41,394 nt of DNA from an uncultured Bacteroidota bacterium (GTDB taxonomy: Bacteria; Bacteroidota; Bacteroidia; AKYH767-A; OLB10). The stretch lies in contig CAINEC010000050.1 of NCBI GenBank assembly GCA_903847585.1, forward strand, positions 1 to 41,394. The letters are read 5' to 3'. This document shows, one piece after another, positions 26,324-29,528 of this stretch; position 1 is the first letter of the stretch; the number at the start of each line of letters is the position of its first letter. Position numbers and translations under genes: made by a program. The notes beneath the pieces were generated by a model. The model saw only the letters and a program-made list of their open reading frames with translations. It had not been told where the DNA came from and did not search any database.

Positions 26324-26554
26324 TTACTTTTCTTGTCTTGGACCACGCTTGTAAGTAATCAAACCATTTAAAAAGTTTCTCAAAAGCTGATCGCCACATT
26401 TTTTATAATTCGGATGATCCTCCTTTCGGAATAATGCGCTGAGTTCAGTTTTAGAAATTTCGAAATCGCTTAGCTTTAAGATCTCAATGATATCATCATC
26501 ACGAAGCTCAAGTGCCACACGTAGCTTTTTAAGAATGTCGTTGTTTGTTAGCAT
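26324..26554 (-). CDS. DUF1456 protein, single-repeat form of YehS
   Basis: A 76-residue protein made of one DUF1456 unit: NNDILKKLRVALELRDDDII, then LFRKEDHPNYKKCGDQLLRNFLNGLITYKRG. E. coli YehS, as I recall it, has two such units in about 156 residues, so this is a one-unit form. No function is established. It follows the GreA-like gene by 18 nt, but CAAAAGTA at 26565-26572 gives a TACTTTTG box on its own strand 10 nt before the ATG, so separate transcription is possible. A homodimer may replace the two-unit protein; that is an inference. Confidence 0.85.
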   Translation of the reverse strand: MLTNNDILKKLRVALELRDDDIIEILKLSDFEISKTELSALFRKEDHPNYKKCGDQLLRNFLNGLITYKRGPRQEK

Positions 26555-26564
26555 AGATGAATGA

Positions 26565-26572
26565 CAAAAGTA
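26565..26572 (-). promoter_or_regulatory. TAnnTTTG box upstream of the DUF1456 gene
   Basis: On the minus strand TACTTTTG, ending 10 nt before ATG 26554, in the 18-bp gap directly after the GreA-like gene's stop. Confidence 0.4.
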
Positions 26573-27058
26573 TTAAAACACATCAACAATTTTAAAGTCT
26601 TTATTATTAAACTTGAATTCAAATCCTTTGGACTTGCCAAGCATGCATTGAACAAATGGACCTTTAGGAGAAAGGATATTTACGGGCATATCATTAATGG
26701 TTAATTTACCCATATTATCAGCGATAAAAACAGTTAAATCATTCAAAATAACAATAGCTCCAAGCTGGATGGTGTCAATTAATTTATCGGGCTTTATCAT
26801 CATAAACACCATTAAATCTTCCATTGCTTTACGGTGCTGATCGCCATATATCAACAAGGTTTGATTAGCATTTTCCCGTCCTGTTTCGTGCTTATCGCCT
26901 GCTGAGCTTTTCTCATTACTTTCTACGGAAGACTTTAGCGATTGCAACATTTCTGTCAGCTCATTAATTTGATTTCGTTTTATACTCAAACATGACTCAA
27001 GCACCACTGATTTAAGTTCGCGCTTCTCCGACTCTGATAAGATTATATTCTGCTGCAT
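26573..27058 (-). CDS. GreA/GreB-like small protein (often mislabelled 3-oxoacyl-ACP synthase)
   Basis: A 161-residue protein: a helical N-terminal half (about 1-85) with the family motif SSAGDKHETGREN, then a C-terminal beta domain like the GreA/GreB C-terminal fold (about 95-161, IQLGAIVILNDLTVFIAD and GKSKGFEFKFNNKDFKIVDVF). Bacteroidota genomes carry this family widely under the wrong name '3-oxoacyl-ACP synthase'; there is no thiolase fold or catalytic Cys-His here. A role at RNA polymerase is possible from the Gre-like parts but unproven. The ATG lies exactly 4 nt after a TAATTTTG box. Confidence 0.75.
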   Translation of the reverse strand: MQQNIILSESEKRELKSVVLESCLSIKRNQINELTEMLQSLKSSVESNEKSSAGDKHETGRENANQTLLIYGDQHRKAMEDLMVFMMIKPDKLIDTIQLGAIVILNDLTVFIADNMGKLTINDMPVNILSPKGPFVQCMLGKSKGFEFKFNNKDFKIVDVF

Positions 27059-27062
27059 AAGG

Positions 27063-27070
27063 CAAAATTA
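27063..27070 (-). promoter_or_regulatory. TAnnTTTG box 4 nt before the GreA-like gene
   Basis: On the minus strand TAATTTTG, then CCTT, then ATG 27058. No -33 TTG at normal spacing. Same N4 arrangement as queA and the gene at 25609. Confidence 0.45.
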
Positions 27071-27121
27071 AACAATTAGGCCATCTTAATTGTTAGTATT
27101 AGCTTGTCAGCAAATAGTTGT

Positions 27122-27129
27122 TAAATTTG
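27122..27129 (+). promoter_or_regulatory. TAnnTTTG box upstream of the repeat-containing T9SS gene
   Basis: TAAATTTG ending 23 nt before ATG 27153. A TTG at 27104-27106 is 15 bp upstream. It is divergent from the GreA-like box 52 bp away. Confidence 0.5.
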
Positions 27130-27152
27130 CTTAACGCACAAAACCAATCCCC

Positions 27153-28484
27153 ATGAAAAAAATCCTTTACACACTTACAATACTAATCGCATATAATACT
27201 ATTAGCTTTGGTCAGATTAGCAATAGCCTTTATGGGATTGTGCGTCAAAACTATTACTCCTATGTTTACAACCCGATTGATTCTAGCATTATCTCTCAGG
27301 TTTTCGATTCTGCAACTGTTCGTTTAGGTACATTAAACACTACCAATGGATTTGTTTCCAACTTGGGAAATTTCACTTATCAAATGGGAATTAATTTGAC
27401 TGGTGCAGCGCTAAACCCTTATGATTCTACCTACATTTTTGTTGGGTCAAGTAACCAAATAAACACATTACATTTAGGTAGCGGAGAAATGATCAATCAG
27501 GCAACTATTAACAATCCAGTTGCAGCAAGTTATTTTGATAATTTCAGATTTTGCAATGGCGATAGCACAATGTACGGCCTAGCAAGAAGAAATTATTATG
27601 ACTCCACTTTAAACCAGAATGTAGGTCAGTTACTCCTTGCTAAAATCAATACAACTACTGGAACTATAACCGAAATATCTCCTAATTCAATCGGACAAGG
27701 ATATGCAATGGCAGGAAGTGCGATTGATCCGTATCAAATGGTTTATTACTACTCCACAGGATCGAATCTTGTTGGTGTAGATATCTATACAGGGAATGTT
27801 TATTCAAACACTCCTATGGTATTGCCTCCTAACAGTCATTTTGATAATTTCACTTACAGTTGTGTTGATACCACTCTTTATGGATTAGTAAGGACAAATT
27901 ATTTCAATAGTGTAAATCCGTTTGTTATTGACTCTTCTACCATTCATTTAGGAAAAATAAATCCTTCAACTGGTAACATTACTATTCTATCTACATCGTC
28001 TTTATTTGGATATGGCTATTCATTAAATGCAGGTTCTGCAATCGATCCGAACAACATGACTTATTATTACAGCACTGGTGATTATATCGTTGGAGCTTCA
28101 CTTTACGACGGTCAACAAAACAGCCTTGACTCCATTCAATTTGCAGATGGTATGTATTTCGACTTGATGAGAAACTTTGACAATTGTAGATCGATAAATA
28201 TTATCCGTACGAATAATAGTACTGGGATATATGAAATAAATCAGAATAAAATAAGCATCGCACCAAACCCATCAAGTGCTGAAATAAATATCCAAAGTGA
28301 AGACTTGATTTCTCAAATCAATATTTACAGTACTCAAGGAAACATCGTTTATTCAGAACAACTAAACTCGAAACAATCATCCGTTTCAGTCAGCGATTTA
28401 AATGAAGGACTTTATATTGTTCAGGTAAAGTTTTTAGATGGTAAGACAGTCAACAAAAAATCATCAAGCAATAACAGCTATTGA
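27153..28484 (+). CDS. Secreted protein with three internal repeats and a T9SS sorting domain, 3' end probably frameshifted
   Basis: A 443-residue protein with a signal peptide (residues 1-21, ends SFGQ). Three internal repeats of about 100 residues lie at roughly 25-136, 139-239 and 241-345. Each opens with a form of LYGLVRTNYF, has a mid motif G(S/A)A(I/L)(D/N)P, and ends with a form of YFDNF plus a cysteine. This suggests a beta-propeller-like surface domain. Residues about 360-443 are a T9SS type A sorting domain (IAPNPSSAEINI, NEGLYIVQV). The last residues, VNKKSSSNNSY, are atypical: one extra A in the A6 run at 28455-28460 would give VNKKIIKQ and a stop at 28472-28474, the normal ending. 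The function of the repeat domain is unknown. Confidence 0.82.
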   Translation: MKKILYTLTILIAYNTISFGQISNSLYGIVRQNYYSYVYNPIDSSIISQVFDSATVRLGTLNTTNGFVSNLGNFTYQMGINLTGAALNPYDSTYIFVGSSNQINTLHLGSGEMINQATINNPVAASYFDNFRFCNGDSTMYGLARRNYYDSTLNQNVGQLLLAKINTTTGTITEISPNSIGQGYAMAGSAIDPYQMVYYYSTGSNLVGVDIYTGNVYSNTPMVLPPNSHFDNFTYSCVDTTLYGLVRTNYFNSVNPFVIDSSTIHLGKINPSTGNITILSTSSLFGYGYSLNAGSAIDPNNMTYYYSTGDYIVGASLYDGQQNSLDSIQFADGMYFDLMRNFDNCRSINIIRTNNSTGIYEINQNKISIAPNPSSAEINIQSEDLISQINIYSTQGNIVYSEQLNSKQSSVSVSDLNEGLYIVQVKFLDGKTVNKKSSSNNSY

Positions 28485-28492
28485 TAATTTTT

Positions 28493-29323
28493 TCATTTAA
28501 GTTTTTTCCTTTTTCTGACACTAGAAGGTGCAAGAAAATTATCGCTCGTAACTATTTTCTTTCCTGTTTTCGACTCAAACTCTACTCGTGCACGCTTTGC
28601 AATAGCACCGCCTTTCTTACTTGCCTTTGCATTTTGGACCAATCCATTTGCACTTATCTTCTCAGAAATAAAATTGGCTGCCATCTCGGCCAAGGATGAA
28701 AAAATCAATTCTGTTTCGCTCATGTGATCACGCAAATTTTGTGTTTTTAATCCTTTGAGTTCTTTATGCTTGTTTATCGTTAAATCTGTCCACTCTTGAT
28801 GAATAATGTTCGTTAAAAATGCAAATTCATTATAGTTTTCAACGCCGTTTGCTTTCCAATAATCCGTAAGTCTATCACGAATCACTTGACCAGCCATTCG
28901 TTGTTGAATCCACTTATCACTCCTGCCCTTTTTTCGCCAATTTTCGCGAGCTCTTTCAATACCTAATGCCGGATCTTGGGTTTCCTTTAAACGTTCGTAA
29001 CCTACCTTCGCCAACCATAATTTAAATGGCTCAGCCTTCGAGGAAGGAATCGCTTGTACCAATCTTAAAACATTTTCGGTATTGCCGGCTAAGGTCTTTC
29101 TGGATTTCCCATTGACGACCATCGCTACCTGGGGACAATTTGTCCCTATGTAGGAATTTAAATCATCATCCCTTTTTCTCATCTTTTTTAGATAATCAGT
29201 GGGGTTAACAGAATCAGTTAAAACTCCAACAATATCTACCAATGAGAAATACCATGTTTCATTCTCGGCATCGTAATATCTACGAATGTTCTTTTCTTCA
29301 AAAACAGTTAACTCTTTACTCAT
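28493..29323 (-). CDS. Bro-N domain protein with DinD-like C-terminal region
   Basis: A 276-residue protein. The N-terminal part (about 5-110) is a Bro-N/antirepressor-type domain (VFEEKNIRRYYD, WYFSLVDIVGVLT, then VLRLVQAIPSSKAEPFKLWLA). The C-terminal half follows the layout of E. coli DinD: NEFAFLTNIIHQEW, KHKELKGLKTQNLRDHMSETEL, and a basic GGAIAKRARVEFESKTGKK. DinD is DNA-damage-induced and has been reported to act against RecA filaments; whether this protein does so is an inference. The start was moved from 29374 to ATG 29323 because the upstream residues do not fit. No phage gene, att repeat or LexA box is evident nearby. The 205-bp AT-rich gap upstream (29324-29528) has no ORF or clear hairpin. 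Confidence 0.78.
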   Translation of the reverse strand: MSKELTVFEEKNIRRYYDAENETWYFSLVDIVGVLTDSVNPTDYLKKMRKRDDDLNSYIGTNCPQVAMVVNGKSRKTLAGNTENVLRLVQAIPSSKAEPFKLWLAKVGYERLKETQDPALGIERARENWRKKGRSDKWIQQRMAGQVIRDRLTDYWKANGVENYNEFAFLTNIIHQEWTDLTINKHKELKGLKTQNLRDHMSETELIFSSLAEMAANFISEKISANGLVQNAKASKKGGAIAKRARVEFESKTGKKIVTSDNFLAPSSVRKRKKLK

Positions 29324-29528
29324 ATTTAAAAAACATTTTAATGTATTCACTTTCGACTTAAGCAAAACGATCATTGATTTATTGCAAATTAAAATTTACT
29401 TATCACTGATTGAATGCTTGAAAAACGGTGGCCAAAATTAAATTATAAAAAAATAAAATATTAATTTCAGAATGAAAAATGGTCGATTTGTTAATAAAAT
29501 GCTTTCGACTATAAAATATAATATCGAG

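Follow-up and report, generated by a model that had tools for sequence, protein, structure and literature searches.

A T9SS sorting signal whose last strand has probably lost one base recently, in an uncultured Bacteroidota bacterium

The window, by which we mean the whole 41,394-nucleotide stretch of DNA that was analysed (contig CAINEC010000050.1 of assembly GCA_903847585.1, an uncultured Bacteroidota bacterium of the OLB10 lineage), carries a forward-strand gene for a secreted T9SS protein that faces a convergent gene with a Bro-N domain. Four of the genomes used for comparison are referred to as G005, G006, G007 and G008. The features of the locus are as follows.

27153-28484, + strand: T9SS gene encoding a secreted, almost all-beta protein, 443 aa as read, recognised from its orthologues and from matches to TIGR04183 and PF18962
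27153-27212, + strand: probable Sec signal peptide MKKILYTLTILIAYNTISFG, followed by Q, spotted by eye
28257-28484, + strand: T9SS type A sorting domain (TIGR04183 and PF18962); the match does not reach the C-terminus of the model
28455-28460, + strand: A6 run, with A7 in G007 and G008 and no A run that long in G006 and G005
28460-28474, + strand: ancestral tail IIKQ-stop, out of frame; 15 of 15 bases as in G007, with G008 differing at one
28461-28481, + strand: aberrant tail codons SSSNNSY, from ORF translation and alignment with orthologues
28455-28493, no strand assigned: quasi-palindrome AAAAAAT ... ATTTTTT spanning the tail and the 3' junction, from RNA folding
28493-29374, - strand: convergent gene with a Bro-N domain (31.5 bits)

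The predicted product of the T9SS gene has several features of an exported protein. The glutamine that follows the putative signal peptide cleavage site agrees with PMC5837995 (in the part of that article available), and the designation of the product as a repeat protein in an earlier note on this DNA is a fair one, as the repeats can be picked out by eye, and the AlphaFold2 models of both the window protein and an orthologue are almost all-beta. No second full-length copy was found in its own genome, where eight further matches are confined to the sorting-domain end. As read, the gene passes the family cut-offs of both TIGR04183 (34.1 bits, cut-off 23) and PF18962 (45.7 bits, cut-off 27), and the lysine conserved at position 436 is still present in the protein alignment. 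What is lacking is the match to the terminal hydrophobic/basic strand of the full profile. The TIGR04183 match ends at position 66 of 72, or at 67 of 72 when the sorting domain is searched alone, as compared with 72 of 72 for the orthologues L032, L033 and L034. The ORF translation ends in GKTVNKKSSSNNSY, followed by a TGA stop. The earlier note had drawn attention to the odd ending VNKKSSSNNSY and to a switch within an A6 run at 28455-28460, and the run is indeed exactly six bases long and lies at those coordinates.

Comparison with orthologues established the direction of the change. An orthologue of the protein is present in 6 of 6 other same-genus genomes, and further orthologues were located at 23 loci in named MAG records; these 29 rows reduced to 24 distinct loci once five duplicates were dropped, and to 23 complete ones, L071 being cut by a contig end. 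The protein alignments cover 22 of the 23 complete orthologues, L082 having been omitted as its tail is that of L081. Read by eye, the tail is normal in each of the 23 distinct complete orthologues, with a hydrophobic residue straight after K or R. Tails resembling SSSNNSY, which the earlier note had named, in combination with uniform A6 reads, as one observation that would count against its idea, occur in none of these 23. One relative, 40% identical to the window protein, lies in a MAG record titled Streptomyces griseus (L075, CALPIT020000055.1), a title that looks wrong because the record encodes a relative of a T9SS protein.

The closest orthologues, those of G007 (L032, 81% identical) and G008 (L033, 80% identical), have A7 at the matching place, encoding NKKIIKQ in frame and then TAA. 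This is the ending predicted in the earlier note, in which one additional A yields VNKKIIKQ followed by TAA at 28472-28474. Where the window has its A run, G006 has AAGAGG and a tail reading IIKRIIKQ, and G005 has AAGAAATT and a tail reading VKKFLKQ. In the DNA alignment of the window with its relatives, the one-base gap falls within the A run and the flanking bases are identical; the window has one A fewer than its relatives in this run. The bases of the out-of-frame IIKQ and TAA are identical to G007 at 15 of 15 positions, yet over the gene as a whole the same two sequences differ at 43% of third codon positions (dS about 1.5, dN about 0.12). A tail that is intact although it is no longer read in frame, set against such divergence, indicates that the frame was lost recently or in the assembly only, unless the fold at the junction described below has preserved these bases. 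Since the close relatives keep a normal ending, the locus looks like the site of an ordinary recent slip or of an assembly error rather than a switch.

Profile scores also place the ancestral reading above the present one. With the domain searched alone, TIGR04183 gives 39.1 bits as read and 45.5 bits for the ancestral reading (+6.4), and PF18962 gives 47.1 and 50.5 bits (+3.4). Together with the orthologues, these two profiles bear out the suspicion voiced in the earlier note that a homopolymer shift had scrambled the sorting tail, and the search of both versions with TIGR04183 that it had proposed gave the lower score to the present ending, though both pass the cut-off. Because both readings clear the curated cut-offs of the two families, the profile by itself does not condemn the A6 form. 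A profile built from 115 sorting domains of this genome gave 43.4 bits for the as-read form and 47.5 bits for the ancestral reading; two intact orthologues scored about the same as the as-read form (42.7 and 43.7 bits), and four others scored between 46.2 and 51.9 bits.

In order to place the gene among the other sorting domains of its genome (TIGR04183 matches counted at E <= 0.001), 134 of 138 sorting-domain ends were read, and each of the 134 was given one-base shifts, forward as well as backward, at as many as 26 positions. The largest gain, 6.1 bits, was that of the window gene, ahead of a runner-up at 3.4 bits; a gain of any size was seen in 41 of the 134, on a profile trained on 115 other ends that favours the native frames of those ends. 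Among the 19 ends outside the training set, 13 showed some gain, and that of the window gene was again the largest. The best-scoring position of the shift lies 11 codons before the gene end and precedes the A run by three codons, and as the profile thus misses the run, the shift was placed by DNA alignment with the relatives instead. Only three of the 134 domains lack V, I, L, F and M in their last six residues; the window gene is one of them, and in the other two those residues come shortly after VVV or LVKKFY. In the TIGR04183 search of this genome, the match G000:C76:4659-4820 holds two internal stops and is probably a decayed sorting domain.

The A run forms one arm of the quasi-palindrome that reaches across the junction with the convergent gene. 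Its predicted RNA fold is more stable on the - strand (-12.0 kcal/mol, z -3.3) than on the + strand (-6.6 kcal/mol, z -2.4). In G007 the corresponding stretch is without such a fold, and in G008 it gives another hairpin. A scan for consensus terminators between 26300 and 29600 found none, and the quasi-palindrome may be a weak terminator for the convergent Bro-N gene that overlaps the coding tail. As a speculation, a template switch between the two arms could have trimmed the A run to match the T6 of the opposite arm. The Bro-N gene itself is 88-90% identical to genes in the same place beside the orthologues in G006, G007 and G008, with no match in the G005 stretches examined.

The region upstream of the T9SS gene has a different history of similarity. 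The gene at 26573-27058 (- strand), with a DUF1456 gene (26327-26572, - strand) directly behind its stop codon, is 82% identical to G005 but 51-54% identical to G006 through G008. Likewise, the signal peptide of the T9SS protein resembles that of G005 by eye, and the whole protein is closer to G007 and G008. This mosaic pattern suggests, from sequence comparison, recombination within 26573-27212.

In itself, the event is either a commonplace one-base indel or an error of assembly. Of the possibilities raised in the earlier note, a real deletion and an assembly indel both stand, with the former favoured, while a slippage site and phase variation are disfavoured. We consider it fairly probable that one A was deleted by recent, real slippage in the lineage of this genome, with export likely to be impaired as a result, and we give a smaller, though still considerable, chance to an assembly error, with A7 and an unbroken sorting signal in the organism and one A dropped from the contig. 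Indel errors concentrate in homopolymers, and the assembly, 2.99 Mb in size, is broken into 203 contigs and has an estimated contamination of 4.29%. In addition, the perfect conservation of the out-of-frame tail is what an assembly error directly predicts. Against this, the other 23 of the 24 genes between 14454 and 41394 can each be aligned with one or more relatives right up to the C-terminus, give or take one residue, although the 25713 coding bases of these 24 genes contain 62 homopolymers of at least six bases, the tail run included. The frames of SprA (2415 aa) and PorU (1273 aa) are likewise unbroken in this assembly, and no tail among the other 133 sorting domains read was improved as much by a one-base shift. 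A generally error-rich assembly is thus unsupported by the intact neighbouring genes and the unbroken SprA and PorU frames, and because the assembly does not look error-rich, we lean towards a deletion that is real in the organism. Some of the sorting-domain frames shorter than 262 aa may have a frame break upstream; by eye, many of these frames have their own signal peptide at the start, and others are close to a contig end or are cut off at the edge of the stretch read. A further reading takes SSSNNSY to be a stable and functional alternative ending; it is compatible with a real deletion, so that the confidences assigned here sum to slightly more than one. The SSSNNSY form remains above both profile cut-offs, its last strand is retained by AlphaFold2, and C-terminal extensions are tolerated in P. 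gingivalis (PMC11285876, in excerpt). We nevertheless regard a functional ending of this kind as very unlikely, given that no such tail occurs in the 23 complete orthologues and that the only two other tails of the 134 whose last six residues lack V, I, L, F and M are hydrophobic just upstream.

The remaining explanations treat the A run as a working element. Slippage on the run, either in decoding or by RNA polymerase, could yield some normal-tailed protein from the A6 gene: a -1 reading restores exactly IIKQ and the stop, the weak hairpin overlaps the run and extends past it, and poly-A slippage on 11 A rescues the broken secretion gene tssM1 (PMC4256274, in excerpt). The run, however, is six A long, and the cases of transcriptional slippage with a stated length in the available portions of the literature have nine or more bases, in runs of 9 A, 11 A or 9 T. 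Nor is the run conserved, being A7 and in frame in G007 and G008 and replaced by other bases in G006 and G005; the same slip in G007 or G008 would be expected to break the tail. We find slippage of this kind hard to credit. Phase variation, in which A6/A7 toggling in the population switches surface export of the protein on and off, has in its favour that the run sits where one base decides the tail, and that in the 134 sorting-domain genes of this one genome, with frames that are cut at the edges of the stretches read and may reach back beyond the true start, the density of A-runs of at least six is 8.1 times as high over the final 12 codons (20 per 4824 bases) as elsewhere (64 per 125445). 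This excess, however, tracks lysine, which makes up 15.9% of residues in tails and 2.9% elsewhere. Synonymous resampling of the tails predicted 27.6 runs (sd 3.3) as compared with the 20 observed, with 20 or fewer in 2 of 200 resamples, and a second resampling gave a mean of 27.9 with 20 or more runs in 299 of 300 resamples; the rest of the genes held 64 runs where 63.5 were expected. Furthermore, 18 of the 19 run-bearing tails look normal by eye, and the orthologues have not kept a hypermutable repeat (A7 in G007 and G008, none in G006 or G005), leaving phase variation as the least likely of these readings. As the run is short and unconserved and tail A-runs fall below the codon-choice expectation, programmed slippage and phase variation were both rejected as leading ideas. 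A further point against both is that the run is just one of the 62 of this length in the 24 genes, of which the other 23 are intact. A broader form of the idea, in which the lysine-rich tails of AT-rich Bacteroidota sit on A-runs, recurrent and reversible slips toggle export, and the window gene is in the "off" state, is about as hard to credit as slippage on the run. The titles and opening lines of abstracts among the literature matches listed contained no frameshifted or phase-variable T9SS sorting tail; PMC7712824 and PMC5524665, in the parts available, pair a T9SS term with "frameshift".

Under the preferred reading, a recent and real deletion, an ancestral A7 (codons AAC AAA AAA ATC) in the last strand of the sorting domain would have lost one A through ordinary replication slippage, recently and in the lineage of this genome, and the last four residues, IIKQ, would have become SSSNNSY. 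The protein would still cross the inner membrane by means of its signal peptide, and its export across the outer membrane would be expected to be poor because the end of strand beta-7 is replaced. Several results from P. gingivalis bear on this expectation. In the available part of PMC11285876, swapping the last six residues of PorU stops export, as does taking two residues off RgpB, while extra residues are tolerated; in an excerpt of PMC4804311, gingipains with truncated last residues stay in the periplasm. PMC12618676, as far as its available text goes, deals mainly with type B domains. On this analysis, export across the outer membrane is likely impaired. It may also be only weakened, since the profile cut-offs are passed, Lys 436 is kept, and PPAD can do without its last two residues, though not without four (PMC11285876, same excerpt). 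The AlphaFold2 models do not decide on the tail, because a last strand is drawn for both proteins: at residues 421-428 in the orthologue, IIK included (confidence 85 in the last block), and at 432-439 in the window protein, running through SSS (confidence 77 over 431-440, with 43 in the last three residues). A PDB fold search with the orthologue model returned propeller proteins, including four YncE chains (TM 0.30-0.43, rmsd 22 to 26 A), matches that say little beyond a propeller-like fold in the model.

Comparison with known systems helps to place the locus. Like the type A domains of RgpB, PorU and PorZ in P. gingivalis, the window domain is over both cut-offs with its conserved lysine kept, and it belongs to a genome that encodes SprA and PorU homologues; unlike them, it has had its terminal motif, the end of the last strand, replaced. 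In this genome, SprA (2639.2 bits) and PorU (1238.5 bits) score over their cut-offs, and the best PorV match, at 65.1 bits, is under its cut-off of 250. Among engineered variants, RgpB lacking two residues and PorU 1152sHis (PMC11285876, in the part available) have in the window tail a natural counterpart in which the last residues are replaced, the difference being that the latter is a natural one-base frameshift in an uncultured organism known from sequence alone. In Citrobacter rodentium tssM1 (PMC4256274, available portion), an A-run also lies beside a broken C-terminus in a secretion-related gene, but there 11 A and demonstrated slippage contrast with six A and unsupported slippage in the window. 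Similarly, a homopolymer alters a protein C-terminus in Helicobacter canadensis (PMC2823697, in excerpt), through translational phase variation on poly-G as opposed to the short and unconserved A run described here.

In total, this locus has probably lost a single base, recently and in the organism itself, from the final strand of its T9SS sorting signal, and it offers a natural test case for the weight that the last residues carry in a T9SS sorting domain. A side result from this one genome concerns sorting tails more generally. Lysine-rich tails gather A-runs, yet because they hold fewer of them than synonymous codon choice predicts, the tails seem mildly protected from such runs; the effect is modest, and it suggests mild selection against slippage.
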